NCBI GenBank assembly: GCA_036346225.1
Contig: JARFIW010001216.1
Span: 1,028,501 to 1,092,500 of the forward strand
Direction of reading: 5' to 3'
Source of the DNA: Platerodrilus igneus
Taxonomy: Eukaryota > Arthropoda > Insecta > Coleoptera > Lycidae
DNA: 64,000 nucleotides
The notes beneath the pieces are model-generated. The model worked only from the letters and a program-made list of their open reading frames with translations. It was not told the origin of the DNA and did not search any database. A program made the position numbers and the translations under genes. Below, in pieces: positions 5,141 to 57,843 of this stretch; position 1 is the stretch's first letter, and the number at the start of each line of letters is the position of its first letter.

Positions 5141-5575
5141 TTACAATTCGAATTTTAAATTTTATTTAAAGTGAAAAAGCTCACTCTTATGTATATAAAG
5201 GGCACTGTAGATTGCAAAAAGGATATCTATATTCTTTTCTAAAACATGTGAGGTAAAAGAATGATCATACCCATAGAAAGAAATATAATCAGATACATAG
5301 TTAATCGCATATTTTAAAACTGATTATAAATGTTTTAACAATATATATGTACCTATTAAAGAATTTTAATAATCGCAGAAATTAGAAAATCACCTAAGCG
5401 GCTATGATGTGCAGCATTAGCCCAAGATCAAAACTTATACACTAAGAGTGGTGTTTCGCTGTGATCTATTAAAAAAGTTAGCTAAGAGCGAGCCGAGCTC
5501 GCACTATTAGGGTTCCGTACCAATACTACAGTGAGCAATCAATAAACCAAATTAAGCTGTTTTATTTTTTCATCA
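5141..5575. other. AT-rich spacer, no gene seen
   Basis: About 430 bases of AT-rich sequence between LINE copy A and a minus-strand LINE tail. No ORF with recognisable content and no clear repeat. Confidence 0.4.
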
Positions 5576-7338: not shown

Positions 7339-7339
7339 G

Positions 7340-7748
7340 TGTGGTACACGTTGGAGTGTATAAAAATCGGGACAGCTCCAGAACGTTTTCCAAAGCGTAA
7401 AGCTTAGCAAATGGACTGTAATTGTATGCAATTGGAGGTAAGCGCGAAAAACAGTAACATAGGTCAAACCGTAATTAATGCTTTGCTTACCTTGCAATGT
7501 TGTTCACCAATTTACTCCCGCGAAGATAGGTGTTGTTTACCGGTCGACGCAACTTGGTCGGGCAGCACCACATATGCACTCGCGGTTATAGTTATTAGGT
7601 GTTGAGTCGGTGAAGAACGATACGAGAGTGTCATGTTGGTCAAGCTAAAAGGCTTTATCGCTCCGCCATATGTGTAGCACAACAACAATATACGATAAGG
7701 CCATCTATACTGTCAATCGCTGACCTCCAACTGTATGAAGTTTTAACA
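7340..7748 (-). repeat. BEL/Pao 3' LTR (complete, ~409 bp)
   Basis: Complete left LTR. It matches the right LTR from TGTGGTAC through CAGCACCACA, then over TATACGATAAGGCC to GTTTTAACA. Bases 7577-7683 have no counterpart in the right LTR, where the 13.5-kb element sits. In element orientation the LTR reads TGTTAAAAC...GTACCACA, a TG...CA structure. Confidence 0.85.
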
Positions 7749-7949: not shown

Positions 7950-9500
7950 TTATGGTGGAGGAAGTGGTACCACCTTGTTAATTGGGCGGACCGCTTCGCC
8001 TGTGGGTGTTTTTAGGTTTACAACTCTTGTTACATAATCTTAACCCGGTAAAAGCTTCGCCACTCTCGCCAAAGGCCAATACGCCGGGGGTGAATCGGGA
8101 GTAAAAAAAAGTACTAGATCCCCTTCTTCTATGGTTTTGGAAGGGGTGTTCCACTTAGGCCTTTGCTGTAAGCTGTGCAAGTACCCTATGGACCAGCACT
8201 TCCAAAAGCTCTGTACAAGTTGTTGGGGCATTTGCCAACGACTAAGCCGATTCGCAGGAACTTTTTGTAAGTCCACTTCACACCGCGTAATTAAAGGTCC
8301 ACCAGTTAGAAAATGGCCCGGAGTCAAGTCATCCGTGCCTTCGTCAGGTGACGTTGTAAGTGCGCAAAATGGACGGGAATTTAAGATTCCTTCTATGCGG
8401 GTCACAACTGTGCTAAATTGCTCCAGAGAAAGTTTCGTTCTACCCACTATTCGTTTTAAGTGAAATTTAGCACTCTTGATGCCGGCTTCCCAAAGCCCCC
8501 CAAAATGGGGTGCATAGGGAGGGTTGAAACACCAATCTATACCCCTAGAAGATATGTAGTGCGCAATGACGGGGTTAGCTTGATCAAAATGTTTATATAT
8601 TTCTAACATTTCTCTAGCCGCCCCACGAAAATTGCGGCCCTGATCGGAGTATATGTTCGTGGGTAACCCGCGTCTGGCTATAAATCTATCTAACGCAGCA
8701 AGACAGGCTTCCGTTGTTAAAGCTGTCACAACCTCCATATAAATGGCACGTGACACCATACAAATAAAGAGGGCAATATATGCCTTTTGAAATTTTGTCG
8801 ATCGCAACGAGGATAGCTTGATTGTAAAAGGACCGGCATAATCCAAACCGGTATGCGTAAAGCATCGTCCGGGTTCGAGGCGATAAAGCGGAAGATCTGC
8901 CATAGGAGGCTGAATAGGCTCCCCTTGGAAGCGATAGCAAGTCAGGCAGCGAAATATTCTACTTCGAATTAATTGACGGATACAAGGAATCCAAAATGTA
9001 CGGGTAACTAATGATTGAGTTAGCCGCGGACCCCCATGACCTGAATATATGTGATAGTAATCACATATTAATACAGCTAACCTGCTGTTTTTTGGGATAA
9101 GCTAGGGATGTTTGCTAGTTATGGAAAGGCTGGAATGGCGCAAACGGCCCCCCGCCATGACTAATCCCGTAGGAGAGAGAAAAGGTGACAACGGACGGTA
9201 TATTTTTGTGCTAGGTTGCCCTTTTTCTAGTAAGACGATATCGTCGTAGATGTGCTCGTACTGAGTAATTCTAATGGCAAATGTGAGAGCGCTACGATAC
9301 TCAGAGGCATTTAACGGACCAGCAGTCCTTGCAAGATTACGTTTGCGTGCAAGGCAGTTAAACGTGAACCTTTTAACGTACGCAAAAATTCGTTGAACTT
9401 TTAGCAAGTTCGAGGACCTTTGTAGTACTACCAAGTATTGTTTCACATCAACAGTAGAGACGAGTGCGTATTGTACGGCTTTAAAACCGTCTGCAATATT
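7950..9500 (-). pseudogene. BEL/Pao Pol C-terminal part: integrase
   Basis: Joins element cDNA to host DNA. An open stretch of 287 codons ending at 8040 has a DDE core at D21 (GLDYAGPF), D87 (YSDQGRNF) and E139 (FGGLWEAGIK), typical of BEL/Pao integrase; a zinc-module tail (RCLTCYRF) lies just upstream of its first ATG. Position 88 is Gln where Asn is usual in SDNG. After LLPG comes an in-frame TAA (about 8040), and the frame then continues through DYVTRVVNL to PLPP and a stop at 7950-7952, so the real C-terminus is about 30 residues further on. 9102-9446 holds the upstream region (RTAGPLNASEY, PFLSPTGLVMAGGRLRHSSL) in another frame, so there is a frameshift near 9100. Confidence 0.85.
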
Positions 9501-9521
9501 GTGTGTGTAGTTATCACTTGG

Positions 9522-10860
9522 CTAATCACAGTAATCGCGGTATAAAAAATCAGGACCCTGCCACCAGAGCGTACAATTCAGTATTTCGGATGGCCTCAAT
9601 CCTCGGCTTGCAGGATCAGAAGCATTCGCAGAACTGGAAACGTATCTCCATATGGCTGTGGGTTGATTTTCATGAATTTGCACCACTCGGTTCGCAAAAA
9701 ATAATTTTAACTGATAAGGTGGCGTACAAATCCACGTCAGTGTGTTTGTAGAGTCACTAAAGCATATTGGATCTAGTAAATTGATGAAGTCAAATGTTAA
9801 TGCTGTATGTTTCATTAGTTTTGCCAAAAGACATGCCGCTCCTAATTCAAGACGAGGAATGGTCCACGTTTTCAAAGGGGCTACACGGGTTTTGGAAGCT
9901 ATCAAATGTACATATATTTTTTCATCAACTTCTAATCGCAGATACACAACAGCGGCCATCGCTACGGAACTGGCGTCGGAGAATCCGATTAAACGGGCTT
10001 GACTATTGCCGATTTTCCAAATAGATCGTGGTATTGTTATGTATTCGAGAAGTGGCAGTTCAATTTGAATTTGCTGCCATTCTTGAAGAATTTCTGCGGG
10101 CAATTGTTCATCCCAATCCACCTTTTGTAGCCATAGGCGTTGCATAAGGCATTTGAGAAGAACCGTAAATGAACTTAAATAACCATTAATATCGAATATG
10201 CGTGCTATGCGTGACAAAATTCCTCGCTTAATAGGGATGTCTGCAATATTTGGAACTTTACATCTTAAAGTATCGGAACCCATATCCCAACAGAGACCCA
10301 GAACATCACGTGTTGTCAAAGTGGGATTAGAGTTCGGTAGATTTAGAACGTCCGTCTCCGACTTATCAATAACTGAAGTGTGTGAACTTCCCCATTTTCC
10401 TAAGTTGAAGTTACCTAGTTTTAGTAAATTGATCAATTCATTTTTTAGAAGGAGAGTTTCTTCTACAGAATCGGACCCAGTCAAAATATCATCAATGTAA
10501 GTTGATGATCTAAGGGCTCGGGAAGCCCGGGGGTACGAGTGACCCTCGTCTTCTACCAACTGCTGTAGAACACGAAGGGCAAGGAAAGGGCTACAGGTAG
10601 CGCCAAAAATAACGCGGGTATGTTCATATTCCGTTAAAGGTTCACAAGGGTGAAACCTCTAAAGAATATGTAAAACTTTTCTATCTTTTGGGTGAACGAC
10701 TATAGATCTAAACATTTGTCGAATATCGCAAGTGAGTGCGACTTGAGGTATTCGAAATCTTGTTATTACAAGACCAATATCAGATTGTAATTTGACACCC
10801 GGTAAAAGAATATCATTGAGACTTGTACCATTAATATTCCTATCGGCAGGACTAAACACG
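9522..10860 (-). pseudogene. BEL/Pao Pol: reverse transcriptase and RNase H
   Basis: Copies element RNA into DNA. 10659-10859 carries the RT core start (SLNDILLPG, then ALTCDIRQMFRSIVVHPKDR, with the first catalytic Asp in CDIRQMF). After a frame break near 10640, a 345-codon open stretch (9522-10559) begins close to the second RT motif YIDDILTG (Y21, D23, D24) and runs through the connection into RNase H (GFSDASSVAMAAVVYLR, WTIPRLELGAACL, CFSDSTNTLTW). The RNase H Asp-Glu-Asp set is visible. The frame shifts between blocks make it a pseudogene, although catalytic motifs survive. ORFs on the plus strand here are shadows. Confidence 0.85.
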
Positions 10861-11020
10861 ACTCGACTTGAGTACTAGAGGGCTTTTTTTTAACCACGCC
10901 GTGGTGAGTCATGATATATAAGGACTGTTTCACAGCGGGAGTAAGTTGTCCCTACGATATATAATTAGCAATATTTTTTTAATATAATTTATAAAAGTTT
11001 TTGTCGCGTGCAAATCGCGC
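10861..11020 (-). pseudogene. Decayed junction between gag-pro and RT
   Basis: Minus-strand translation still shows pieces expected between BEL protease and RT: RFARDKNFY, GQLTPAVKQ, MTHHGVVKK. At least three stops interrupt it. This explains why the gag-pro ORF ends at 11021 rather than continuing into RT as one polyprotein. Confidence 0.6.
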
Positions 11021-13216
11021 TTATAGTTTTAGAAAGCGATTGGTAGCTAATTCTCGTGTTGAACCTAATGTTCGGGAAATGTTTTCTATGAACGGTAGTC
11101 GAACCACACACTGGCCTAACTCGTTTCGTATAGGAGTGGACTTGAAATAATTTTCACAAGCCACGTTTTCAGGCGACATTGGCGGCGTAAATGGTATTTC
11201 TTCAGCTTCCCAGAAGGCACGAATGGTGTCGCTATGGGACGGTTCTTCCGATATGCTAGTGTACAACGCAACCCCTGAATACGGTTGACTTAAAGCTGGT
11301 ACATCACCCATAATAACCCAACCAAACGAGGTAAGAAGCGCCGATGGCTTGCCTGTTAAACGCAACGAATCGTTTGGTGTGGCATCTAAGACAGCTTGCA
11401 CACCTAACAGCATATCGACAGGAGCGGATATGTGAAATTCAGGATCCGCTAATTGTAGGGACGAAAATATGTCTATTAAATGCTTAGATAAATTTGCTAT
11501 CGGAAGATCTGCGGTAATACGAGATAAAACAACAGCCTGTAAATTTAAAGAAACGTTTTGATCATATATTGATGCAACGTTACAGGTAGCAATTCCATGA
11601 ACCTTTTCTAGCGGAGATTGGCCTACACCACGTATTTCAAAAGGACATTTCTTGCGTTTAAGACCTAACTTGTTAGCTAAAGATAATGTGATGAAATTAG
11701 AATGCGACCCTTGATCTAAAACCAAGCGACAGCGATGCCAACTACCGTCACAGGCTAAAATTCGTACCTGCGCCGTGGCTAAAAGCGCAACGGTTCCCTG
11801 TTCATTTGCACAGGAATGAACAAGAGAGACTGGAGCAGGAAAATGTTCAGCCGAATTAGCGGCACCTGAAGAGTGTCCTACCGCGCTTTGTGGCGGAGTT
11901 GGAGTACTGCATGAAATTGGTGCCTCGATACACAGTAGCGTATGGTGCATTTTACTACCGCACCGTTTGCACTGATATTTTGACTTACAAGTCGAAAGGG
12001 GATGTGGTGATAAACACGCAAAACATCTATGATATTGCTTTACCATGTATTGCCTTTCTAGAGTTGATAAAGCTAATAATTTTGGACATCTGTAAAATTT
12101 GTGGAACTGATCGTCGCAGGCAGGACAGAGCTTAGAAATGGCCTGCTTGGCATTAAATTGTCGTGAAGTAACTTTCTGTGCGGACATTGTTACACGCTTA
12201 TTGTTTACAGAATTTGTATAATATGGTCGAGGGTTAGCCCTTTGTGGTGGACTAGACACATTTTTTGATGGTGATGTATTATTGTTACCGCTCACCAGTG
12301 CTAAGATAGAACATTTGTTGGGTAAATATTTTATAAAATCGTTAAATTTCGGAAATGTTTGATTTAAATGTTCCTTTTCGAATTCTTGTCTCGACTTCGG
12401 GTCTAATAAACCGAGGGACAAAAATAAAAATATGTAATCGGCCAACTCAGGTAGCTGCATGTCGATAAGAGCTGTGACTTTGGCTTGCAGGGTTTCACAT
12501 AAATCACTAAGAACTTTTGGGGAATCCGTCTTTAGTTGAGTTAGTGAAAATATTTTGGATAAATAATGATTAGCAATTAGCCGTTTATTAGTGTAGCGTT
12601 GAACTAAGAGATTATAAACAACCATATAATTTTCTGGAGCAAATCGAACAGATTGTGCTAGCTTTAATGCCGTCGCATCCAAATAAGAAAGCAAATATGT
12701 GAATTTTTCGCAATCATTAAGTGCGTTATTGTTGTGAATAATGTTGTCATATAGAGATTTAAACGCACCGAATTTCTCGGGGTCACCTCGAAATATATCT
12801 ATTTTTATTTCTGGTAAATGAACTTTAGATCTGGTATTTCCAGAAATATCAATAGTATTTACATTGGGCGTTGTGTCTGGAGCGACATAGCGCGCCGCAT
12901 TAGCTAAAATGTCATAGTACATAGTATTGAACGTAGATTCTAGATTAACGGTATCCGTAAATAAGGTTTTATAAACGTCAGAGAGTGACGATAATTCATC
13001 TAAGACATCTAAAAATTTTGTTCTTACGTCATTCAGCTGACTAACACGAGCTTTAAATTGATCAAGATTAGTTGGTAACGTTGAAATTAAATCGTAACAA
13101 TCTTGCAAACATCGCCAGTACCTTTCTTTGCGATTTGTTAATCGTTTAAAATCAAAAATAACTTCACGTTCTGGTTCCATATTGTACCAGGTATACTCGT
13201 AACAAATTGAAATCAC
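11021..13216 (-). CDS. BEL/Pao Gag-protease polyprotein, open 731 codons
   Basis: Forms the element's particle and cuts the polyprotein. The N-terminal third is helical gag; the DUF1759-type gag block covers roughly residues 135-290 (PEIKIDIFRGDPEKFGAFKS, LLSYLDATALKLAQS). Around residue 400 comes a Cys/His-rich region (LCPACDDQFHKFYRC) followed by a zinc knuckle CX2CX4HX4C (CKRCGSKMHHTLLC). The aspartic protease follows (LVLDQGSHSNFIT), with Gln in place of the usual second residue of D-S/T-G. Then SFGWVIMGDVP, a typical BEL post-protease motif. The ORF ends at ATNRFLKL by a stop where RT linker should begin. The first ATG (13216) may be preceded in use by MEPEREV 11 codons on. It is one of the few long open frames here, so the insertion is not extremely old. 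Confidence 0.85.
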   Translation of the reverse strand: MISICYEYTWYNMEPEREVIFDFKRLTNRKERYWRCLQDCYDLISTLPTNLDQFKARVSQLNDVRTKFLDVLDELSSLSDVYKTLFTDTVNLESTFNTMYYDILANAARYVAPDTTPNVNTIDISGNTRSKVHLPEIKIDIFRGDPEKFGAFKSLYDNIIHNNNALNDCEKFTYLLSYLDATALKLAQSVRFAPENYMVVYNLLVQRYTNKRLIANHYLSKIFSLTQLKTDSPKVLSDLCETLQAKVTALIDMQLPELADYIFLFLSLGLLDPKSRQEFEKEHLNQTFPKFNDFIKYLPNKCSILALVSGNNNTSPSKNVSSPPQRANPRPYYTNSVNNKRVTMSAQKVTSRQFNAKQAISKLCPACDDQFHKFYRCPKLLALSTLERQYMVKQYHRCFACLSPHPLSTCKSKYQCKRCGSKMHHTLLCIEAPISCSTPTPPQSAVGHSSGAANSAEHFPAPVSLVHSCANEQGTVALLATAQVRILACDGSWHRCRLVLDQGSHSNFITLSLANKLGLKRKKCPFEIRGVGQSPLEKVHGIATCNVASIYDQNVSLNLQAVVLSRITADLPIANLSKHLIDIFSSLQLADPEFHISAPVDMLLGVQAVLDATPNDSLRLTGKPSALLTSFGWVIMGDVPALSQPYSGVALYTSISEEPSHSDTIRAFWEAEEIPFTPPMSPENVACENYFKSTPIRNELGQCVVRLPFIENISRTLGSTRELATNRFLKL

Positions 13217-13704
13217 AAATAACTAATGGAAAATGTAACGCAGTTGCAAAGTCTTAAAGGTAAACACAGTACTCGTGGAGAGGCAATGTTAATGTTGGTA
13301 CGGACTTAAATTAATATAAGTGAATTCAGAACTCTAAGAAATAAAGTGCATTAGGTACGAAATATTTACAAACAAAAATGTAAACAAACAGTTTCGTTAA
13401 AGTCCTTTGACTTATTTTGTTATCTACACAGCTGATTGATAAGCGTAGTAACAAGATGTTAATGAACTACAAACTTTAAATAAATTGGAACAAGTTTTTG
13501 AACACCTGTGATGCTAAATGCAAAGTACTCGTTTTGTTGATAATAATTCAAGTTTGAAATCTTTAATAGAAATCATGCATTTTAATATTCAAACCCACTT
13601 TTAGAAAATAGTTTAGAAAATGAACTAATGTAATAATTTAAATTTTAATGATCCCGCTAATGAATTATATTAATTTTGACTATAATTCAAAGCTTATTTG
13701 TTCA
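13217..13704 (-). other. BEL/Pao 5' untranslated leader
   Basis: AT-rich segment between the gag start and the primer-binding region of the element. No coding content; it belongs to the element because it lies between PBS and gag. Confidence 0.6.
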
Positions 13705-14018: not shown

Positions 14019-14119
14019 AGTAGACCATTTTTGGGAATCCCACCGCCTCATTTCCACCAGCTTCCCTCATTTCCACACACATCTGGACCAAAAAGTTTTC
14101 TTCGACTAACCATTTTTCA

Positions 14120-14800
14120 TCTTTCGAGATAAATATCTTAAATTTTTCATCTTTCGAGATAAATGAGCATCCTCATTTCCACACACGAGATAAACCTATC
14201 TTGTTTGGTATCGATTAATATTAGAATTTTCTCAGCTACCCGAATTTCTAGGAATTTTTTAGATAGCATCATCCCCCAGGGAGCTACCCTAATTTTAAGA
14301 TTTCTTACAAAGACCGATTTCTAACCGTCCGCATAAATTTTTTTAGTCATGCAATACATCTTGTTAGTCTAAAATTTTACGCACATCCCGAATCTGCAAA
14401 CAGATTTGAAATCGGACCACGCCCTGCAAAGTTATACCCCTTTAAAGTCCTGATCTTCTAATTTTGCTATTTGCTCTATAAGCAAACCTAACAAATAGTT
14501 TTCTTCGTCTAGCCATTGCATCTTTCGAGATAAACCTATCTTGTTTGGTATTAATCAATATTAGAATTTTCTCAGCTACCCAAATCTCTAGGAATTTTTC
14601 AGATTGCACCATCCCCAAGGGAGCTACCCTAATTTTAAGATTTCTTACCTGTAGCGACTTTTGAGCGTTCTTATAAATTTTCTTAGTCATGCGATACATC
14701 TTGTTAGTCTAAAATTTTACACAGAATTTGAATCTGCAAACAGATTTGAAATCGGACAACGCCCTGCAAAGTTATACTTTAAAGCTCTCAAACCTCTTTA
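14120..14800 (-). repeat. ~300-bp tandem units inside the left arm
   Basis: Two adjacent units share the same landmarks in the same order: GATAAACCTATCTTGTTTGG, TTAGAATTTTCTCAGCTACC, GGGAGCTACCCTAATTTTAAG, CAGATTTGAAATCGGAC, CGCCCTGCAAAGTTATAC. A third, very degenerate unit is near 17780-17900. ORFs through this area look accidental. Confidence 0.75.
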
Positions 14801-15245
14801 AAAAATTTTGCTCGTATATATTTAACCCCATTTTTTAAAACCTTTTTCGCTACCCAAGACATATGCTTTAACCAACATAAATAAATTAAACACGCAAAAT
14901 TTTAATAATTTATTTATCCAACTTACAGTTTAATAAACTTATAGAATGCAATTTTTACAAAGTATAACATTATTTCCTGTGCGTAGCCGAAAGTTTAACC
15001 TGTAACAAAAAAGAGATTAATGTGTTGTTTAAATAGACCTGTAACAAAATGAGATTAATGTAAAAAAAGAGGAGACGCGTTTTCGGTTAATAAGACATAT
15101 TATCGTTAACCTAACAATATGTTTTACCGTCCAGCAACACCACGTGGAGGTAAACACATTCCAATGTAATGGGTTTTAAATAGGAAAGTACGCTAAATGC
15201 TAGTCAATTAACAGCAATTAAATATTGCTTACTGACCTACCTTAA

Positions 15246-15817
15246 TTAGGTTGCTGTACTATTAGGAATGATGTTTAAGACCTCGTACGTATTTTCCGGA
15301 TTATATGTTGTATTCTTTTTTTATTAAGTAATCGAATAAATCGTTCCTTCTGCTTCCAAAGAAACTCGGACACTCTATTGTCGACGCTGGCGTTATTTAT
15401 GCGATAGCTAGCCATGCAGTTGTTAAACGCTGTGCTAATCATTTCTACGCCATCTTCGTTAGTAGCGGTAACTGATGCATTTTATGTTTGTTGCTCCTTA
15501 AGTGTGCGGCGTACGTAGTTTTCCATTTCGAAATCGCATACTGTACACATAATTCGTGGTTGTTTCGTACAAGACCCTTTAACAGCTGGTGGCGTTGAAC
15601 GTTTACGGCTTAATAACATACCGTGCTTTTTCCTTGTGTCGCTGTGAGCTATTCTCGTAAAAGCGATACCGCAAGACCTAGAGTTTAAGTACTTTGCTGC
15701 GGACGGCAACCCTGGGCGATGTTACACTACGACATTTGTTCTGGTGCCGTTTGAGAGCATTTTTCCAGGTATAGGAAGCACCGCAAGGTTGCACTTATAA
15801 ACGTTTGCAGGTACCAT
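15246..15817 (-). pseudogene. Zinc-finger-like ORF in the left arm
   Basis: Minus-strand copy of the gene at 25462-26033. The recognisable part encodes RKRSTPP, then CTVCDFEMEN (a Cys pair); in the next frame AAHLRSNKHK supplies the His pair of a C2H2-like finger, and further on there is AFNNCMASYRI and FLWKQKERFIRLLNKK. The cysteine and histidine halves are in different frames, and an early stop follows the proposed start MVPANVYKCNL. Both arm copies have frame breaks, so they may be remnants. From memory only, this finger followed by an AF-x-SYR block resembles the N-terminus of insect proteins labelled Polinton/adintovirus-type DNA polymerase B. Confidence 0.5.
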
Positions 15818-16249
15818 TTTAGTACAAAACAAAACCCGCACTATAGCACTTTAGTTAAACTTGTAATCGAACTAACTAAAAAGCTTACTCGAGCGTACCT
15901 GATTTATGCTCCTTATAGAATGCAAACCGAAGGTTTCCGAAGACGACCGAACGATGTTGAGGATTCGGCGGGGAACTAAATGATGTCATAATCCTCGCTG
16001 CTCGTCCAATACATTTAGCGCTAATGCATGCACCTGGTTCGCTTCGTCGATGGTGCGTATGCCGTTAGTAGAAACACCGGAAAACGTCTTCCATGTTATA
16101 CGGATCGTGTGCATATTAAAAATCCAAAGAGGGCTAGCACACGCACACAAGTTGTCTGCAAGTCGTGCTGTAGAATATGCAGTGCTACTATAACCAAAAC
16201 ACTTTAAACCATTACTAAGAAAATACCAACTTGTTGTCTACAGGATACT

Positions 16250-17490
16250 TACAACAATTTAATTTTAAATAACTTCTACGTCATACTTTAGGAAATAATA
16301 GGCTTGAATATTTTCCAAATGAATCACCAAGCGAAAGTATATGCTTAGCACTATTAAAATTACCCATTAATTTCCCATTTTTACGACCGTGGTTAATTAT
16401 AGATTAAAATTTAATTTGTGCACGTTCGAGCTTCTCGTAAACTAACATATTTTATAGCAACAATGCGCTGTATAATACATGCATACCCCTTCGCCGCGCT
16501 ACTGCTATTCTTGTAATTGCTAGAAAAGTCACTCTCCTTTTACTGTTAGGAGCGATGCAAAGCACCATTTTTTATACTTTCTATAGCACATTGCACACTT
16601 TTCGTCTGATAATTAAATTTTGCTTCTGTAGGCTTTTACACTTTCGCATAGCGGTCAATCGCACGTAATGATTTCTAGAACCGGTAAGTACTCGATATTG
16701 TCCAAATAGAGAATTAGATGCTCGATGTCTGTCAATTTCCGATTCCCTCGTAAAGGTAGGAAAAACCAGTCAATAATCCATTATACTTCAACCCGCTCCT
16801 GTTCTGATAATTTACAAACATTTTCAAACGACAATGGGCCGAGAATTTTTAAACCTCCGAGGATCTTTAAGTCGTGATCAATTACACATCCGAGCTACGC
16901 GTAAACTGACATATTTTGCAGCAACTGTATAATACATTGCATACCCCCTTCTCTGCGCTACTGCTATTCTTGTAGTTGCTTGGAAAAATCAGTTGCCCTT
17001 TTTACTGCTAGGGCTGCTAAAAAAACACCATTCCATACTTTCTTTATAAGTGTAGCACATCGCGCACTTTTTTGTCGGTTAATTAATTTTTGTTTATGTA
17101 GGCTTTTACACTTTTGCATATTTAAACATCTAATACGACCGATTAACCACTTTCGATTATTCTAACGGAGACTACCATACATACCGCTGCACCGTTCTTT
17201 TTGATTCCAACGATCCTATGGGCTTCCACGCACTAACACCTGACGTATCTTTCCTACTATTTGTTAAACAAAAACTACCGGTATCGATATTGTGGACGTA
17301 AACAGATGTTTGTGGATGTGTACGAGAGTATGTAACCATATACATTAACCAGTCTAAGCTATTTTATTTAGTCCACGAAAATTATTATTTTTCTAAACCA
17401 TAATTAATAATCGCCTTTATAGGTTCCACATTTCGATCATTTCCCAATGACTGGTGCTACGTACATGGAAAGTTTAATTTTTTATTGGAG
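16250..17490 (+). repeat. Inner, older repeat layer (left)
   Basis: This stretch matches, inverted and with many changes, 22320-23300. Landmarks include TGTTAAACAAAAACTACCGG / CGATATTGTGG (17265-17300) against 22490-22530, and CGACAATGGGCCGA (16830) against 22835-22855. Within it, about 16430-16690 is duplicated in direct orientation at about 16870-17130 (shared GCGCTACTGCTATTCTTGTA). Confidence 0.65.
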
Positions 17491-17494
17491 AGAA

Positions 17495-17600
17495 TAAGAA
17501 TTCTCCCACGCACTGCTGCGTAGTTGCATGCCTACCCCTTTTGGGAATATATGCTCGTTATAGGTTGTAGCACCCGCGGTTTTACTTAACTACACTTTGT
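17495..17600 (-). pseudogene. Fragment duplicated from the interior gene
   Basis: TAGTTGCATGCCTACC, TTTTGGGAATATATG and TTATAGGTTGTA here match 18985-19055, part of the interior gene at 18637-20524, in the same orientation. It is an extra partial copy of that gene lying 1.4 kb away. Confidence 0.65.
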
Positions 17601-18349
17601 GAGATCCCTTTAATCTTTTTAATCGTATCTTTCTCGCCTACAATACACTCGGACTTAGCCCTACTACCAACAAATTCTAATACTGGACCCCCATTAAATA
17701 TGTCTTTAATTTTCCCTACAACTTTTTTTTTGTTGACAAGTGTTATATTGTATTTATTATACGCGGGGTAGTCACTCTTTTAAGATAAATATATTTTGTT
17801 TGGTATCAACTAATATTAAATTTTTCTAGGGACCCCAAATCTGTAAATAGATTTTAAATAGGACCACCCCATACAAAGTTATGCCTTTTAAAGACCCAAA
17901 TCACTGATTTTTGCCCATCTTTATTTAACTCCATCTTTAAAACCCTTTTTTTCGCTAACCAAGACATATGCTTTAACCAACCGTTTCCCTAGAAATCTAA
18001 AACCGCAGTGTCCCGCGAATACCACGTGGAGTTAACACGTATACTCCGTCAACCAGGATAGAAGCAGGAAGGATTTGGAAGGTGGGAGAAGAACTTAAAA
18101 ATTATGGAATCTTAAAACTAATATATACAATAGATTTACAAATCCATACAAATATAAACAACTATGTTATATCTTTACACCTCCATGCGTAGATTGTTGT
18201 ACTATTAGGAATGATGTACTTTTTGTCATCTTCCTCGATAAACTAATTTTATTAATAAGCTGCGTATGCAAATCGTATTCTTTTACTCCGGATACATACG
18301 CAGACAAGTACTCCACACCAAATAAAGAATTGGATGCTTGGTGACTGTT
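17601..18349. other. AT-rich interior segment of the 13.5-kb element
   Basis: No gene seen. It holds a degenerate piece of the ~300-bp arm unit (about 17760-17990) and, near 18005-18040, an ACCACGTGGAG(G)TTAA stretch resembling the arms at 15140-15160. Confidence 0.4.
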
Positions 18350-18480
18350 AACATCCGCCTCCCTCGTGTACGCCCAGACACATCCCAGCCCATGAGCACC
18401 CCTGCGCATGCACACCCCAAGCCATGCGCGCCCATGCGCGTACGCACCCTGCCCATGCTCGCTGCCCATGGCACCCCTTT
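18350..18480. repeat. GC-rich CCCATG-type repeat patch
   Basis: A ~130-bp patch with repeated CCCATG/GCGCATG words (AAGCCATGCGCGCCCATGCG and similar) that is strikingly GC-rich against its AT-rich surroundings. Overlapping ORFs on both strands here come from the lack of stops and look accidental. Confidence 0.6.
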
Positions 18481-18636
18481 CTGTGCGACTGCTATTTCGG
18501 GTAACGTTACAGCCTTTTATAAATAAAGAACAATGTTATATACTATTATAAAATGTTTATTCTGACATTATACATAACAAATTTAAAAATATTTAATACC
18601 AAGCATGGAGTCATTTAACTTAATTTTAATACAAAG

Positions 18637-20524
18637 TTATACACAGAAGACAGTCCTTTCTTTATGTTTGTTTGCAGTGGTTTTAATTTTATCTAATTTT
18701 ATTCGCAGCTTAAAATTTAAATCGACACCCAAGTCTTCTATCTCCTTTTCTAACCAATAGTTTGATACATAAAGACCGTCTAGGTTTTCGAACTGTAAAA
18801 TGTACCGAAGTTTGCCTCTATATTTAAAGTCTTTGATTCCACCGACAACCAGATCCATTCCTTCGTGTAATTCTTGCAGCTTGTGACAATCTTTTAATCG
18901 CAGCTTTCCCACTATATCCTGCATACGTATCTTGTTAGCTTGATCGACTTCTTCTTGTCGGTATTGGAGGAAATCCTTTTTCCCACACACCGTTGTGTAG
19001 TTGCATATCCACCACTTTTGGGAATATATGGTTGTTATAGGTTGTAAGACCCTCGGTTTTAAATGATCCGAAAGGTTCTTTACTGGGCAAATATACAATG
19101 TTTAGCAGAACCCCTTTGCGTGTGGTGTACGCCAAGGTTACGAAACCCGCATTCCTTAGTTCGTCTTTGTTATCTGCCATTTTGATAAATACGTTTTTAG
19201 AATAACCTTTTAAAAAGTATACGGATTTAGTACCATCCTTTTCTACAAGAAGACCTACATAACTAAAAGAGTCTTTCTTACTAACCGCAAATGCATACAG
19301 CTTGTACAACCCGGATGTATCTAAGTCAGTCCATCGACACATAAAATAATCTTTTAATTCTTCCTCATTTTCTCTAATAAGATGTTCTTTGTCTAACACA
19401 TCTTTGTATTGTTCGCGTATCGTCGCAGTGTTTTCCATGTAGTCAATTTTCGCCTTTTGCATCCATTTCCTCTAATTCCAGTTGTCTTTTCCTTCCACTT
19501 ACTGCGTATGGCATACATAATGGGGTAATTTCCTTTAGCGTAAACGGATAGAGTTTACTACCAATATTTGCGCGTTGTCGTACAACCTCTGGGCGAATGT
19601 TAGGTGTATTATCAATCCCAATTCCGAAATGACTATTTCTTTTGGAATTGTAGAATATGGTGTTGCAGATTGTGTAAAATATGTACTACCTGCTTTAATG
19701 TAGCACTTGTGTAAGATTTTTATTTTATCTTGGCTGTCTTCCTCCTCTACTATCTCCAAATAATTTACGGGTAAATAGTTAAAACTAAAAGCCAAAGCAC
19801 ATACTTTATCAATGTTTCCCTTTCTTTTGGTTTTCGGACAACTTAATTTGCAAGCCCGTCAATTTCTTTGTATTACCATTACCCCAATACACGTACTGTA
19901 GCAGGTTATTATACACTAAACAGCAGCTATTTTGTAGCTTGTCCGATAGCTTACTCCACATTTTGGCAAGTGGTACCGAGTACATTGGCGCCTTTAGGAA
20001 GTATAACACTATCTTCCAATAACGTTAAACAGTCTTTTAAGGGATTATACACCCGTTCCGCACTGACATAGCTTCCAATTGCACAATTGTATATTGTCGC
20101 TTCCAATCGCGTAATACCATGTTCTTTAGCCAAAGTAGACGCAAATGTTTCCCTTAAACGTACATCTGGACAACGTAAAAAATCTAGTATATGATTGCCA
20201 AGTTGTTTATTAACACCAGGACTTGTTATCTGACACACAAATTTGTTGTATATCTTAATTCTTGCATTGGTTGTTAGCCATGTTAAACAATCAATTCCTA
20301 CAGTTTTATCGTTGTCAACTATAATATTACACTTTTCTTCGTATTCGCCCTTATAGCAAAAGTTATGGTTTGTAGTTAAATAATTACACATCTCCATCTT
20401 GCTAAATATACCCGCAAAATCTTGGGTTACATCCATGTCAAAAAGATAGAAATAATCTTTTTTCGAGTTCGTCTAATATATCTGGTAGTTCCTCAAAAAG
20501 TTTCCAACTTAACATCTGCTAGTT
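18637..20524 (-). pseudogene. Interior gene of the 13.5-kb element, KIYNKF/TRLEATIYN protein
   Basis: The only sizeable coding region in the element's interior. Adjacent minus-strand frames (20436-19951, 20009-19809, 19795-19535, 19462-18935, 19098-18637, plus an upstream piece to about 20524) read as one protein of about 620 residues broken by at least four frameshifts. Motifs in order: YLFDMDVTQDFAGIF, TVGIDCLTWLTT, RIKIYNKFVCQ, GNHILDFLRCPDVRLRETF, HGITRLEATIYN, then YSVPLAKMWSKLSDKL, LQYVYWGNGNTKKLTG, FNYLPVNYLEI and a C-terminal region near YILQFENLDGLY. A conserved K-x-YNK followed by an R-x-E is reminiscent of some rolling-circle initiator families, but I cannot show an HUH motif, so a replication role is only a possibility. 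I do not otherwise recognise the family. Confidence 0.6.
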
Positions 20525-21120
20525 CCACTTTTATGGAAAATTAAGGAATTTTAAAATTTTTATTAATGCATTAGGTCTCTTTCGATAATTTCTTTTAATT
20601 GGCCCATTTGTTTTTTTTGATGAAAAGGAATTAGTTTTAAACACATTTTTCTCGAACAAATCGCAAACTTTCTTCTATCTGGTAATGCACCAAAATTTTT
20701 AGGTAAACTCCTGTTTGCGGGTTTGTCGGCGTTAAAATCGAAATTTTAACAACATTTTTGTCAAAAAGGTTTTAATGTGTTAAATCACAAGATGCAAATC
20801 GATAACAAATATTACCAATATCTGTTACCAGATTTTGTTCCTATTTTCTATTACAGCCATAATCCAAATGCATTTGTCGGTTTCACTTTATTCCCAAAAA
20901 GTTGTAGAAACGTTAATCACCTTGAGACGCTCATGTTTACCGTTCTAGCTACTATCGAAATAAATTAAAAAAAAAATTGTTCTCTTATGTATTCTACAGA
21001 GTTGGGCGTATATTGTACCGAAGATAGTCGAATATGTTGTATCCGATCCTAAAGCCAGGACAGGAGATGCGTCATACGACAGGTTATCCGGATATATGTA
21101 GGATGTTAAATTAGGTGAAA
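20525..21120. other. AT-rich interior segment, no gene seen
   Basis: Lies upstream of the interior gene (which reads away from it), so a promoter could be here, but I see no defined element. Short ORFs have no recognisable content. Confidence 0.35.
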
Positions 21121-21126
21121 TTGCCC

Positions 21127-21173
21127 ATGACCACATGACCACATGACCAATGACCATTATGACATGACCACAT
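21127..21173 (+). repeat. ATGACCAC short tandem repeat
   Basis: Five or six imperfect copies of ATGACC(AC) in 47 bases, immediately outside a cluster of stem-loops. Nothing similar occurs elsewhere in the window. Confidence 0.75.
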
Positions 21174-21234
21174 GAAAATTGATAGTATGGCTTTTTATTA
21201 ATGGTTAATATCTATAAAAACCATTAGCTAATTG

Positions 21235-21350
21235 TTTTAATGAGTTTTCTCATTAAAAACTCGTTTAACACTAATTGCTTTTAATGAGTTTATCATTAAA
21301 AACGCTCATGTAAAACGTGTCGCGAATTGCTCTTAATGAGTTTTCCTTTT
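21235..21350 (+). repeat. Cluster of TTTTAATGA stem-loops
   Basis: TTTTAATGAG-TTTT-CTCATTAAAA (21235-21258) is a perfect 10-bp stem. TTTTAATGA-GTTTA-TCATTAAAA (21279-21301) is a perfect 9-bp stem. A third imperfect copy is at about 21331-21355. They recur every ~45-50 bp in the middle of the element. Confidence 0.75.
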
Positions 21351-21379
21351 AATCTTAACACTGGGTCAAGGTTAAAAAA

Positions 21380-24300
21380 ATCTAATAACTAAGTGCATGG
21401 TATTAATGAAGTAAATCGTTAGCATTAGAAGCACTGTTCAGACTCGATAGAGTGGCGAATATGATAACATGTGCAAAAGTAGTTCGCGTGCTATGTGTAA
21501 TTGTAGCAAGACTTATGTGCATGTGTAATGTTAAATATGCGGGTTGGATATGCTGTTCTGATGGCGGATTGACATGGCATTGTTCTGATTCGAGCTCGGT
21601 TCATCGATTACGGTGAAGTTCGAATTCGGAGTCAAGTGCTGAATTGAATGGTTGATGTGAAAATTGTGTCGGCATGTGCAGTGACTGTGCGAGGGCATGA
21701 CGTATTGCGGTATGCGTTCTGACTGACGGATGGATGTTTATCTAAGAAATTGTGGTTGGATCGTGTATCTGGGTATAATGTGTAGATCGTGCAGTAAGTA
21801 TGAGAAGTGAACTGCGGTCGTAAATCAAATCTGTGTTCCAATGGAGACATGGTTGAAATGGACCGGAAATGAGAATCGGTGTTCTGTGACTGTGTGGATG
21901 TGACGAGGATCGTTGGACGTCGAGTGAGTGTATGGTTGAAGCTTTGCAGGCGAACAGAATGTATGGTTGACGGCAAGCGATAAAGTGTGTACTATGCTGA
22001 AGAATGCAGTGGATTGATGTGAGTGTTCTTGGTAATGAACGGCGCAAATGCTGCGTTGACGTTGATAGGCGTTGACGTTGCTGTGACGTAGGTGTACGCG
22101 ATTGGCGGACAATGATGTCGGTGACGGTGGCGACGACAAACTGTTTAACGTTGGGAAGATAATTAGTTATGCTAAAGGGCCATGCTCGTTGCAAATTTAA
22201 TGGGTCCAGATAAATTGTGTGTGGTATCTTATTGCAGAAAGTAGATTAAAAATTAAGGGACCCAGTTACGTTAGTAAACCGGGTCTTAAACTAAACGAAT
22301 TTTCCTAAAGGTGCACAATGGATGCCGAGAATAAATTTCAATAGAAATTAAAGTTCCAGATGCACCGCATTGGGAAATGATGAAATGTGAACTATAAAGG
22401 GATTATTAATTATGGTTAGAAAATAAATTTCTGGACCAAATAAAATACTTAACTGGTAATGTATATGGTTACTACTGATCCAAAAATCTGTTTACTCCAC
22501 AATATCGATACCGTATTTTTGTTTAACAAATGTAGAAAGAACTCAGGTTTATCTGAAGCCCTAGGATGTTGATTAAAAAAATACTATGTTTAATGGTTTT
22601 CCTTAATAACGGGTTAACGCTTGGTTTATGAAAATCAAATGTAAAGCCTCTAAAAATTAATTAATGAAAAATGCCTGACATTTAAGAAAGTATGAATGGT
22701 TTAGCAGCCTGCGTAAAAGGACATTTTTCCAGATCAGAATAGCAGTACAGAAGGGGTGCAGTATTCGTTGCTGCAAAAAGTTGTTTCGTGCGGATGTAAT
22801 TGTCGTTAAGATCTGGAGGTTTAAAAATTCGGCCCATTGTCGTTGAATGTGAATTCGACGGGCGGGTTGAAGATAATGGTTATTGCTGAGTTTTTCCTTT
22901 CGAGGGAACGGAATTGAGACTGAGATCTAATCTATTTGGCATATGAGACTTACGGTTCTGAAAATTCTGGTTGACCTATGCAAAGTGTAAATCAGAAGCA
23001 AATTTAATATCCGAAAATGCATGTGTTGAAGTATAAAAATGGTGCTGGTGCAAAGTAAAGGGTGACTTTTGTCGAATAGATGCGTGCGGCAGGGTATCAT
23101 GATAACGCATTGTCATAAAATTGTTGTTTAGGAAGTCGAACGTGACATTATTACATATTAACCGGCGTAAAATGGGAAATATGGGTATCTTAAAGAGATT
23201 ATTTGCTGGTGTTCATTGAAAATATTCAGCATTTTCCAGTTGCGTGAAGTATTAAAATTAATTTGTAGTTCTGTGACAACAATGGTTTCTAGAAGGTAAA
23301 GTGTTTGATATAGTCTGCATTCGACGATTGCAATTGTGGTGTCCCTTTTGTTAATGCACGACGATACATGGAAGGTTACCGTGTTCAGGAACGACTGGAA
23401 CGACAGTCGTAGTATTATTGACGATGGATTGACAATGTCGGATCCAACTGTTGGTGAATGTGTCTAGACAAGCGTGCAGTGAGTAATACGATAAGTAATG
23501 GTTGACGTTGGTACAAAGTCTGAGTATAGTAACTGTGCTTCTGAATAGGAGAATGTGAGATCGTCGTTGGTCAACGGCAATCTACTTGCGTTGATCAGGC
23601 GTGTGAAACGTGCGCGACGATGTATAGCGTTGAAGCGCAACTGTGTGCGGTGAAAATGCGTGCGGTTGTGAAACGTTGCGTTGGAAGATAAGTGATGACT
23701 CAAAGGCGCAATGCTGGAAATGGTGATCGGACAGCTAACTGCTGTTTAAGCTGTATGTACTTGATGACATGGAATTGACGGGACTGACGTAAGTGTCGAG
23801 AAAGGTAAGTGATGTGCTGGACTACTGTTCCGTATGTTGGAATGTGGGAGAGCAGATAAAAAAATCTTACCAATGTCTTCGATAAGCGGGTGGTCATGTT
23901 TAGCAATCTGCAACTGTTCTGATTCAAAATAGTCATTCGGGATGAATGATTCGCTCGGCACGGTGAGCGTGCCGGAAATGATGGCTGTCCGTAGCGAGTG
24001 GTAGTGCATAGGAAGCAATGGATGAAATGGTGGCAAGTGGACTGACTGGCTGCGCGATGTGTGACAGGCTGATGAAAATGTGAGAAAGATGATTTTAGTG
24101 TCGATAGACTGACTCGGTAATGTTGCTGGGTTGAAGACTCTTTGACTGTCTGTGAAAGGATGTTAAATCCGTATGCGGTTATTCTAAAACGTGTTGTAAA
24201 TGCGAACAGATGACTGACGACGTGCGGGTCACGCACAAAAGTGCATGTTCTGGATGCGTAACTTTCGGATCATTGAGCTTGACACATTGTTCCCAAAAGT

Positions 24301-24500
24301 GTGGATATACTGCGCGTGGAGGATTTCCTAGCGAAGAAGTCGTCAACGTATGCGGAATGTGGGGCTGCGATGGTGTCATGGCTGAACGAAATGGTCGTGT
24401 CGGCAGAATCAAAGATAGGGGCAAACTCGCGTCATTCGAGCTGAAGCGATCTATGTCGATTGAAAGGAGATGAAACGAGTCGTTGGAAAGCTGCGAATAA
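21380..24500. other. G-over-C skewed, apparently non-coding block
   Basis: The plus strand is visibly rich in G and T and poor in C across this block. Minus-strand ORFs of 80-178 codons appear because the skew removes stops; they translate to Ser/Thr/His/Arg-rich strings in several overlapping frames and show no domain. About 22320-23440 is the right half of the older inverted-repeat layer. Confidence 0.5.
22320..23440 (-). repeat. Inner, older repeat layer (right)
   Basis: Inverted and diverged match to 16250-17490, and thus also a diverged direct copy of part of the right arm (for example 23275-23430 against 25035-25230). The right half of the element therefore holds an old and a young copy of the inner arm sequence in tandem. 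Confidence 0.6.
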
Positions 24501-25461
24501 ATGAATAGTTAAACCACTGCAAATACGAGGGAATCGGAAATTGACAGACATCGAGCATCTAATTCTCTATTTGGACAATATCGAGTACTTACCGGTTCTA
24601 GAAATCATTACGTGCGATTGACCGCTATGCGAAAGTGTAAAAGCCTACAGAAGCAAAATTTAATTATCAGACGAAAAGTGTGCAATGTGCTATAGAAAGT
24701 ATAAAAAATGGTGCTTTGCATCGCTCCTAACAGTAAAAAGGAGAGTGACTTTTTCTAGCAATTACAAGAATAGCAGTAGCGCGGCGAAGGGTATGCATGT
24801 ATTATACAGCGCATTGTTGCTATAAAATATGTTAGTTTACGAGAAGCTCGAACGTGCACAAATTAAATTTTAATCTATAATTAACCACGGTCGTAAAAAT
24901 GGGAAATTAATGGGTAATTTTAATAGTGCTAAGCATATACTTTCGCTTGGTGATTCATTTGGAAAATATTCAAGCCTATTATTTCCTAAAGTATGACGTA
25001 GAAGTTATTTAAAATTAAATTGTTGTAAGTATCCTGTAGACAACAAGTTGGTATTTTCTTAGTAATGGTTTAAAGTGTTTTTGGTTATAGTAGCACTGCA
25101 TATTCTACAGCACGACTTGCAGACAACTTGTGTGCGTGTGCTAGCCCTCTTTTGGATTTTTAATATGCACACGATCCGTATAACATGGAAGACGTTTTCC
25201 GGTGTTTCTACTAACGGCATACGCACCATCGACGAAGCGAACCAGGTGCATGCATTAGCGCTAAATGTATTGGACGAGCAGCGAGGATTATGACATCATT
25301 TAGTTCCCCGCCGAATCCTCAACATCGTTCGGTCGTCTTCGGAAACCTTCGGTTTGCATTCTATAAGGAGCATAAATCAGGTACGCTCGAGTAAGCTTTT
25401 TAGTTAGTTCGATTACAAGTTTAACTAAAGTGCTATAGTGCGGGTTTTGTTTTGTACTAAA

Positions 25462-26033
25462 ATGGTACCTGCAAACGTTTATAAGTGCAACCTTGCGGTG
25501 CTTCCTATACCTGGAAAATGCTCTCAAACGGCACCAGAACAAATGTCGTAGTGTAACATCGCCCAGGGTTAAGCCGTCCGCAGCAAAGTACTTAAACTCT
25601 AGGTCTTGCGGTATCGCTTTACGAGAATAGCTCACAGCGACACAAGGAAAAAGCACGGTATGTTATTAAGCCGTAAACGTTCAACGCCACCAGCTGTTAA
25701 AGGGTCTTGTACGAAACAACCACGAATTATGTGTACAGTATGCGATTTCGAAATGGAAAAACTACGTACGCCGCACACTTAAAGAGCAACAAACATAAAA
25801 ATGCATCAGTTACCGCTACTAACGAAGATGGCGTAGAAATGATTAGCACAGCGTTTAACAACTGCATGGCTAGCTATCGCATAAATAACGCCAGCGTCGA
25901 CAATAGAGTGTCCGAGTTTCTTTGGAAGCAGAAGGAACGATTTATTCGATTACTTAATAAAAAGAATACAACATATAATCCGGAAAATACGTACGCGGTC
26001 TTAAACATCATTCCTAATAGTACAGCAACCTAA
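25462..26033 (+). pseudogene. Zinc-finger-like ORF in the right arm
   Basis: Plus-strand copy of the left-arm gene. It opens MVPANVYKCNLAVLPIPGKC, stops after about 30 codons, and later reads (in another frame) MCTVCDFEME and, in a third frame, YAAHLKSNKHKNASVT, DGVEMISTAFNNCMASYRI, FLWKQKERFIRLLNKK, ending at TAA 26031-26033. An extra A in a run after the Cys pair, compared with the left arm, shows the break is variable between arms. A start-to-stop protein does not exist in either arm. The arrangement suggests the N-terminal part of a longer protein whose remainder is missing from the element. Confidence 0.5.
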
Positions 26034-26479
26034 TTAAGGTAGGTCAGTAAGCAATATTTAATTGCTGTTAATTGACTAGCATTTAGCGTACTTTCCTATT
26101 TAAAACCCATTACATTGGAATGTGTTTACCTCCACGTGGTGTTGCTGGACGGTAAAACATATTGTTAGGTTAACGATAATATGTCTTATTAACCGAAAAC
26201 GCGTCTCCTTTTTTACATTAATCTCATTTTGTTACAGGTCTATTTAAACAACACATTAATCTCTTTTGTTACAGGTTAAACTTTCGGCTACGCACAGGAA
26301 ATAATGTTATACTTTGTAAAATTGCATTCTATAAGTTTATTAAACTGTAAGTTGGATAAATAAATTATTAAAATTTTGCGTGTTTAATTTATTTATGTTG
26401 GTTAAAGCATATGTCTTGGGTAGCGAAAAGGTTTTAAAAATGGGGTTAAATATATACGAGCAAAATTTTTAAAGAGGTT

Positions 26480-27450
26480 TGAGAGCTTTAAAGTATAACT
26501 TTGCAGGGCGTTGTCCGATTTCAAATCTGTTTGCAGATTCAAATTCTTGTAAAATTTTAGACTAACAAGATGTATCGCATGACTAAGAAAATTTATAAGA
26601 ACGCTCAAAAGTCGCTACAGGTAAGAAATCTTAAAATTGGGGTAGCTCTTGGGGATGGTGCTATGTGAAAATTTAAAGAGATTTGGATAGCTTAGAACAT
26701 TCTAATATTGATTGATACCAAACAAGGTAGGTTTATCTCGTGGGTGGAAATGTGGAGAAAGATTTATCTCGCAGAGGGTATATGTGTAACTTTGCAGGGC
26801 GTGGTCCGATTTTAAATCTGTTTGCAGATTCGTTGTGTAAAATTGTAGACTAATTTAATGTATTGCATGTATAAAAAATTTATAAGAACGCTCAAAAGTC
26901 GCTACAGGTAAGAAATCTTAAAATTAGGGTAGCTCCTTGGGGATGGTGCAATCTGAAAATTCCTAGAGATTTGGGTAGCTGAGAAAATTCTAATATTGAT
27001 TAATACCAAACAAGATAGGTTTATCTCGAAAGATGCAATGGCTAGACGAAGAAAACTATTTGTTAGGTTTGCTTATAGAGCAAATAGCAAAATTAGAAGA
27101 TCAGGACTTTAAAGGGGTATAACTTTGCAGGGCGTGGTCCGATTTCAAATCTGTTTGCAGATTCGGGATGTGCGTAAAATTTTAGACTAACAAGATGTAT
27201 TGCATGACTAAAAAAATTTATGCGGACGGTTAGAAATCGGTCTTGGTAAGAAATCTTAAAATTAGGGTAGCTCCCTGGGGGATGATGCTATCTAAAAAAT
27301 TCCTAGAAATTCGGGTAGCTGAGAAAATTCTAATATTAATCGATACCAAACAAGATAGGTTTATCTCGTGTGTGGAAATGAGGATGCTCATTTATCTCGA
27401 AAGATGAAAAATTTAAGATATTTATCTCGAAAGATGAAAAATGGTTAGTC
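26480..27450 (+). repeat. ~300-bp tandem units inside the right arm
   Basis: Three units with AACTTTGCAGGGCGT, CAAATCTGTTTGCAGATTC, TAAGAAATCTTAAAAT, GGTAGCTC and GATAGGTTTATCTCG landmarks, at about 26500-26745, 26785-27030 and 27118-27370. The middle unit is the one absent from the left arm. Confidence 0.75.
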
Positions 27451-27535
27451 GAAGAAAACTTTTTGGTCCAGATGTGTGTGGAAATGAGGGAAGCTGGTGG
27501 AAATGAGGCGGTGGGATTCCCAAAAATGGTCTACT

Positions 27536-27600
27536 AACAATATACGATAAGGCCATCTATACTGTCAATCGCTGACCTCCAACTGTATGAAGTTTTAACA
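27536..27600 (-). repeat. BEL/Pao 5' LTR, part 2
   Basis: AACAATATACGATAAGGCC to GTTTTAACA matches 7684-7748 in the complete LTR. It is the outer end of the interrupted 5' LTR and directly borders the split LINE. Confidence 0.85.
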
Positions 27601-27601
27601 C

Positions 27602-28270
27602 CATTTCATTAAGAGCAGCTTCTAACTCTTCCTTGCTAGACGCTAATACCGCTATATCATCTGCAAATCTAAGCATATCAATTTTTGTCCCTGCATAGTA
27701 ATTCCAAATGTCTTCCTGCATTTGATAGTATTCATTGCCTGTTCTATGTACAAGTTAAAAATCAATGGGGATAGGGCACATCCCTGTCTCACCCCTTTCC
27801 TAATGTTTACTTCTGTACGTTCCTGCTCTAATTCTATTACTGCTGTTTGCTCTTTGAATAAGCTATGTACTATTCGTCTGTCCCTATAACTCATTCCAAT
27901 CTTTTTGAGTATTTCGAACATTTTTTTCCATTTTACATTGTCGAATGATTTTTCCAGATCTACAAACCCTACATACACGCTTCCCCCTTTTTCTATTGTT
28001 TTCTCCATTATCACTCTCAGAGCTAAAATAGCCTCCCGCGTTCCCCTGTTTCGCCTAAACCCAAATTGGTCTTCTAGTATTTCTTCAGCCAGTTTTTCCA
28101 TTAGTCTTTGCACAATTCTAGTTAATATTTTTGACACGTGTGTTGTCAAACTTATTGTTCGAAAATTTTCACATCTATCCGCGCCTTGCTTTTTTGGTGT
28201 AGTTACTATGATGCTATGTTTGAAATCTTTGGGTATCTCGCCTGTCTCATTTTTTATGTATATTTAAATC
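27602..28270 (-). pseudogene. RTE-like LINE, copy B, reverse transcriptase part
   Basis: A 165-codon open stretch (27652-28149) gives RT motifs: HVSKILTRIVQRLMEKLAEE, EDQFGFRRNRGTREAI, YVGFVDLEKSFDNVKW (first catalytic Asp region), GVRQGCALSPLIFNLYIEQA. Upstream in the same strand, in another frame, are IPKDFKHSI and KKQGADRCEN. The catalytic FADD is not in frame (CLDLQMI region, frameshifted). The 3' continuation is at 7338 and below, separated by the BEL/Pao insertion. It is 5'-truncated near 28270. Confidence 0.8.
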
Positions 28271-35470: not shown

Positions 35471-35622
35471 ACAAAACTGTTCCTAAACAAGAGAATGTAA
35501 GCGATATAGCGGTGTCCGACATATTCGGGTATCTTCGGTAATATACGCCCCCACTCTGTAAAGCACATAAAGGCAATTTTTCGTATTCAATTTAGTATTC
35601 GGCAGTAGTTAGAACGGTAAAC

Positions 35623-55779: not shown

Positions 55780-55792
55780 AGTATAAATCACA

Positions 55793-57841: not shown

Positions 57842-57843
<2 letters not shown>

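Follow-up and report, generated by a model that had tools for sequence, protein, structure and literature searches.

What is the 13.5-kb stretch with long inverted arms that interrupts a long terminal repeat (LTR) retrotransposon in the lycid beetle Platerodrilus igneus, and by what route did it enter? The window, a 64,000-nucleotide stretch of contig JARFIW010001216.1 (assembly GCA_036346225.1), contains this element at positions 14019–27535, with AGTAGACC...GGTCTACT ends and further copies elsewhere in the genome. We conclude that it is probably a helper-dependent satellite of Polinton/Maverick elements that has a gene of its own, here called KIYNKF, for a predicted replication protein of Rep_trans-like type. 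The motif AGTAGACC occurs once in the window, at 14019, and so does its reverse complement, at 27528–27535. An original prediction, made from the letters alone, described near-identical inverted arms of 2.7 and 3.0 kb around an interior, and inverted self-alignment agrees. The left arm (14019–16752, plus strand) and the right arm (24524–27535, minus strand) are 97.5% identical over 14019–14774 versus 27535–26787 and 98.3% identical over 14526–16752 versus 26740–24524, values lowered to 94.7–96.6% by looser gap scoring. They enclose an interior at 16753–24523. Tandem repetition of a 288-bp unit (26496–27028) accounts for part of the extra length of the right arm.

Copies were searched for in the same genome (2.71 Gb). 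Absence of any other copy had been named as a refutation of the prediction; clearly many exist, as the outermost 582 bp of the arm gave 69 matches (40 of 4,985 candidates scored), many of them inverse pairs 13–19 kb apart on many contigs. The sequence AGTAGACCATTT occurs 965 + 945 times in the genome, against 249 + 276 for its reversed control. Ten paired copies were fetched, chosen by eye among the best-scoring matches, with the paired C81 and C266 left out. They are of two kinds, five Polinton/Maverick elements (C1096, C1009, C824, C447, and C1231) and five carriers of the KIYNKF gene (C858, C385, C1180, C1087, and C89), so the proposed survey of same-end copies showed, in the ten pairs fetched, interiors that are either Polinton or KIYNKF. 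Among ten open reading frames (ORFs) of the Polintons, Pfam recognised DNA_pol_B_2, phospholipase A2, a Pox_A32-type ATPase, and a double-jelly-roll capsid; matches in further ORFs to an integrase, on a fragment (rve, 7.7e-5), and to a C48-like protease (0.0042) were both below the curated cut-off. Using tblastn queries drawn from those five copies themselves, the full set of polB, integrase, ATPase, double-jelly-roll capsid, protease, and phospholipase A2 was found in 5/5, many of the genes with frame changes, and the KIYNKF gene was found in none of the five. These five copies are Polinton/Maverick elements. The suggestion of a Polinton/Maverick relationship and a reduced virus-like element was therefore well placed, with 5 of the 10 same-end copies carrying Polinton genes. 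Such elements are very numerous in the host genome; a whole-genome search with the capsid family PF21738 gave 9,709 loose candidates, of which 126 were scored and all 126 exceeded the family cut-off. As a separate observation, a Polinton ORF (L019:3926–4678) lying between the integrase and the ORF at 4695–5456 matches the N-terminal domain of the phage T7 tail fibre (PF03906, 1.3e-6).

The window element thus has its cis ends in common with an autonomous family of the same genome. The terminal repeat that it has in common with the five Polintons extends up to 1.1 kb. On the left, the common outer arm spans 14019–15162 (plus strand) at ∼84–94% DNA identity, in pieces, with only about the first 0.57 kb represented at the left ends of C824, C447, and C1231; on the right, DNA comparison places it at 26117–27535 (minus strand).

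The interiors of the KIYNKF copies are of a different nature. C858, C385, C1087, and C89 are near-perfect palindromes of 14–15 kb, with arms of 6.7–7.5 kb that are 98.3–99.1% identical and each contain one broken KIYNKF gene; C1180 is longer and less regular. Two additional copies, C1598 and C1267, were selected for the longest KIYNKF frame; in each, long arms flank just one gene (in C1267 the arms measure 3.98 kb, with 98.7% identity). In 9/9 KIYNKF copies, counting the window element and the partially fetched C1069, tblastn with the Polinton genes for integrase, ATPase, capsid, protease, and phospholipase A2 found nothing inside the element. C-terminal fragments of polB are present in all nine, and an N-terminal zinc-finger fragment in all but C1069. 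Within the C1598 and C1267 arms, the frame encoding the zinc finger ends just ahead of the polymerase part. At least two KIYNKF loci (C1295 and C646) lie within 16 kb of a capsid match, as judged by eye among the matches listed; in C1295 an ordinary KIYNKF arm intervenes between the two.

Within this group the window element, at 13.5 kb, has arms of ∼3 kb plus an older, degenerate inner arm. Decayed N-terminal (C2H2 zinc-finger) fragments of polB were located by tblastn in the left arm (15431–15871, minus strand) and the right arm (25408–25895, plus strand). A C-terminal remnant at 17588–17776 (minus strand) is 71% identical over 63 amino acids to Polinton polB, and an additional DNA match of ∼70% lies at 18010–18299. 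No other part of a protein-primed polB was found in the element by tblastn. The zinc-finger-like ORF noticed in the arm corresponds to the N-terminal portion of a polB of Polinton type that breaks off before the polymerase core; the remark that integrase, capsid, and a full polymerase were not visible held when genes of same-genome Polintons were used as queries, with polB scraps alone detected. The KIYNKF gene of the window occupies 18640–20934 (minus strand), broken into several frames and homologous along residues 1–795 of the intact protein (P0001). The older inner-arm copy (22339–23314, minus strand) matches 16187–17487 in inverted orientation at 69–73%.

The flanks confirm the predicted insertion into an LTR retrotransposon, which belongs to Bel/Pao. 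To the left, 13775–14018 matches 7333–7576 of the uninterrupted LTR (7333–7748) at 98.4%; to the right, the LTR resumes at 27536–27600, which is 100% identical to 7684–7748. The intervening 107 bp (7577–7683) are gone, and inspection of the flanks revealed no target duplication at this junction. Both the missing duplication and the loss of 107 bp point to rearrangement during or following insertion, and the shorter arms and older inner-arm copy, taken with the lost duplication, suggest the same of the window copy. The window copy is the exception. Target duplications of 6 bp were read by eye off the printed flanks in 5/5 Polintons (taggat, aataca, aatatg, catgtt, gcttaa) and in 7/7 KIYNKF copies with both ends seen (catatg, tatgtg, aacgct, gatatc, tctgac, tatgtg, tccgga), C1069 standing outside the tally with no end in its fetched stretch. 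In C1598 tatgtg counts only when five extra terminal bases are allowed at the right end, and in C1267 tccgga was read beside AGTAGAGG ends, 15 bases inside the BLAST boundary. The window element's ends fit the AGT/AG...CT terminal-inverted-repeat pattern of Polinton/Maverick elements; 6 bp is the reported Maverick duplication length, and the reported end motifs include (AG)3 and (AGT)2 (PMC8097293). Apart from this, the right terminus of C1598:4580500–4594500 (L031, L029, L032) has AGTAA ahead of AGTAGAG, which looks like the addition of a few bases at the end and by analogy may recall slide-back at protein-primed ends.

The intact KIYNKF frame encodes 795 amino acids. A genome search with the KIYNKF piece from the window returned 16,562 loose candidates, of which the best 150 were taken as matches; with the whole protein the best 57 of 33,050 candidates were scored, and 20/57 are stop-free. 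The ratio of nonsynonymous to synonymous substitution rates (dN/dS) among four stop-free copies, taken from six such loci (L046 and L048 left out, L045 also unused), was 0.28, 0.28, 0.31, 0.38, 0.39, and 0.79 for the six pairs. By this measure the reading frame is under purifying selection. The protein has 43 relatives, including ones from Schistocerca, Planococcus, and Cacopsylla; a profile search found 55, and a profile of the distant members found 78, with Tritrichomonas musculus as the named species. The relatives by themselves make an insect host likely. The family libraries searched give the protein no name. P0001 matched no Pfam family at E 10 and no NCBIfam entry; no HUH nuclease domain turned up by that route, and no motif search aimed at it was made. 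Searches of Pfam, the PDB, and phage proteins with the broken ORF of the window yielded nothing useful. The Rep_trans profile PF02486 did not match P0001 and was absent among the matches listed (25 of 37 families) for the 42 members of the alignment (P0001 plus 41 of the 43 relatives). One of these 42 members matches Intein_splicing (E 4.3e-4). No relative was found in IMG/VR with either the insect or the Tritrichomonas-branch alignment, nor in GTDB contigs with the insect alignment, and these scans thus provide no natural virus context for KIYNKF.

In a structural model, the N-terminal domain appears similar to TBP and to rolling-circle initiators of the Rep_trans family, and the C-terminus weakly resembles oligonucleotide-binding (OB) folds. 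Y256 is the predicted catalytic residue, with D68, D195, and E305 as predicted metal ligands; this Asp/Asp/Glu/Tyr/Lys pattern is nearly invariant among the relatives. The tyrosine with its lysine (YxK), the acidic ligands, and an RxE are assigned by sequence order and conservation, not by superposition. The pattern was held by 3/20,000 shuffles, with its spacing picked after the protein was seen. The interior gene, originally described as part of a content that does not fit a textbook DNA transposon, encodes when intact a conserved 795-residue protein that was not found in the five Polintons and whose predicted role is that of a Rep_trans-like protein in replication. LEF-3, the top PDB match of the whole model (E 2.9e-3), was rejected as a name (TM-score 0.07; aligned by VIA only to residues 568–678), and CD1/MHC matches in the same list were taken as chance.

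The arms carry a further signal. In five long-armed copies, the two arms within a copy are 99.07–99.93% identical and arms across copies 92.1–99.2%, the partner arm being the closest in 5/5; C1069 was outside this comparison. The shorter repeats of the fetched Polintons have a within-copy likeness of 96.1–99.8%. Fold-back of one strand and its self-copying shortly before insertion would lead one to expect this higher within-copy identity, and arm-to-arm gene conversion fits it too.

Taken as a satellite, the element family likely relies for its spread on Polinton proteins produced elsewhere, which would copy and insert it, a dependence inferred from the ends and the length of the target duplication. 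Polinton polB would start protein-primed synthesis at the common ends, which make it the likely copier of KIYNKF elements, and Polinton integrase would insert the linear product. Together these two steps would explain both the common ends and the 6-bp footprint, and integrase acting on linear DNA with Polinton ends is the most likely mode of entry. The KIYNKF protein may be a Rep_trans-type tyrosine nickase that also binds single strands through OB-type parts, its substrate being either the displaced strand or a hairpin into which the arms fold; on this reading its most likely role would be that of a nickase and strand binder favouring its own DNA. The displaced strand would fold back and be self-copied, so that both arms derive from one strand and palindromes of 14–15 kb arise. 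The polB scraps are ∼29–75% identical in amino acids to the fetched Polintons, versus the ∼84–94% DNA identity of the ends, and the ends may therefore have been exchanged with those of today's helper. A bolder version, which we advance tentatively and consider somewhat doubtful, is that KIYNKF represents the first eukaryotic branch of Rep_trans, from parabasalids to insects, and drives giant palindromic satellite Polintons that use helper ends for integration, have replaced protein-primed replication with their own nick-and-fold-back replication, and rewrite both arms in each cycle.

KIYNKF could instead be the transposase or replicase of an autonomous rolling-circle- or rolling-hairpin-type transposon that gained Polinton-like ends by recombination. 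A dedicated, conserved gene that is stop-free in 20 of the 57 scored copies and has a dN/dS of 0.28–0.39 in 5/6 pairs is what such an element would carry. The predicted nickase fold and active-site pattern, the relatives in other insects and Tritrichomonas, and the excess of loose KIYNKF candidates in both searches over exact AGTAGACCATTT ends point the same way. But the ends are those of same-genome Polintons, the 6-bp duplication in all seven two-ended copies has the length reported for Mavericks (PMC8097293), and helitrons, which use rolling-circle nickases, leave no direct repeats (PMC5714925); we therefore regard autonomy as unlikely. Slightly less likely still is simple decay of a Polinton, which would make the element a defunct deletion derivative with KIYNKF as passenger cargo and palindromes made by occasional inverted duplication. 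The window copy, broken, lacking a target duplication, and retaining polB scraps, looks much like this, and the KIYNKF genes of the palindromic copies are in pieces too. An identical gene set in nine copies, stop-free genes, a frame under purifying selection, and palindromes with 98–99% arm identity and their own duplications are nevertheless hard to reconcile with simple decay.

Two other explanations concern the arms. Other palindromes are known to undergo gene conversion between their arms, and host gene conversion or an assembly error, rather than replication of the element, might account for the palindromes and the arm similarity, the more so as the window junction has no target duplication. 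The five long-armed copies, however, lie on five contigs, each with its own exact 6-bp duplication at both outer ends, and the Polintons' shorter repeats have a similar within-copy likeness, which makes this explanation improbable. An assembly artefact, the other doubt raised in the original prediction, is for the same reason unlikely, even though the window copy itself has no duplication. A fold-back transposon of the FB/Galileo type, unrelated to Polintons, would have inverted arms that are long and contain tandem repeats, as seen here; it is largely excluded, since the ends, outer arm, and polB fragments are those of a Polinton and the Pfam matches of ten interior and arm ORFs include no transposase family. 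The fold-back reading was dropped, together with Helitron and Mutator-like element readings, after the same-end Polintons turned up.

The satellite interpretation can be set against known systems. The five Polintons, which are adintovirus-like, resemble the KIYNKF elements in their AGTAGA... ends, a terminal repeat of at most 1.1 kb, the 6-bp duplication (in sister copies), and polB-derived sequence. They differ in arm length (∼0.5–1.7 kb versus ∼3–7.5 kb in KIYNKF elements) and in content: capsid, ATPase, protease, integrase, and the polB core were not found in KIYNKF elements, nor KIYNKF in the Polintons. Virophages on giant viruses and non-autonomous transposable elements likewise keep a helper's cis ends and drop its proteins, and defective adenovirus palindromes are a further helper-dependent example that keeps such ends. 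What sets the KIYNKF satellite apart from a simple deletion derivative is that it retains a conserved gene of its own with a predicted role in replication. With Rep_trans (PF02486; RepDE 4cwc/4cwe, RepSTK1 4cij, MobT relaxases) the protein may have in common a TBP-like catalytic fold, as its model predicts, and its D / DxD / KxYxK / RxE parallels the order D46 / D142 / RxYxK / R212xE214; it differs in having no sequence-level match, DxD in place of RxD, a long OB-like C-terminus, and a eukaryotic host. The archaeal Rep-Arvir (DUF7845) initiators, as described in a 2026 report, are likewise linked to Rep_trans through structure alone and have a conserved tyrosine and acidic residues, but they belong to archaeal viruses and plasmids, have another motif around the tyrosine, and carry a winged helix-turn-helix where KIYNKF has OB parts (PMC13107129). 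According to that report Rep_trans appears restricted to bacteria, with archaeal kin recognised through structure (PMC13107129). A further paper describes prokaryotic double-jelly-roll viruses, some with polB and others with Rep_trans or HUH initiators. Within the literature covered, which did not extend to subscription papers and Repbase, no comparable element and no eukaryotic Rep_trans were described. A non-autonomous transposon riding a helper is thus known; no precedent was found in this search for a palindromic one on Polinton ends with a conserved predicted Rep_trans-like gene.

Other features complete the window. The coding ORFs of the interrupted Bel/Pao element lie at 8040–13222 (minus strand). 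A second KIYNKF fragment, 5′-only, is at 35519–36070 (plus strand); it covers residues 1–156 at 66% amino acid identity and is 86–87% identical in DNA to L029/L030. Scraps of KIYNKF-element arms at 43986–44171 and 55587–55791 match the end of the L029 zinc-finger ORF region. Another repeat family, on both strands and with ∼70–87% mutual identity, occurs near Bel/Pao at 57842–60147, 51699–53211, and 2657–7338, and recurs at 27604–28250, right outside the element. A 173-bp unit is tandemly repeated at 62903–63998 (6.4 copies, 89% matches).

If the predicted assignment is true, Rep_trans enzymes would have a eukaryotic branch whose active site is conserved; the class would then reach into a third domain of life, and eukaryotic transposons would gain a nickase that is not of the HUH type. 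The element itself would be a Polinton hitchhiker with its own replication gene, and as gene and helper are both very numerous in the genome, helper dependence and interference would be directly testable. Palindrome arms that agree more within than between copies would then be a readable trace of the route by which the DNA was copied.

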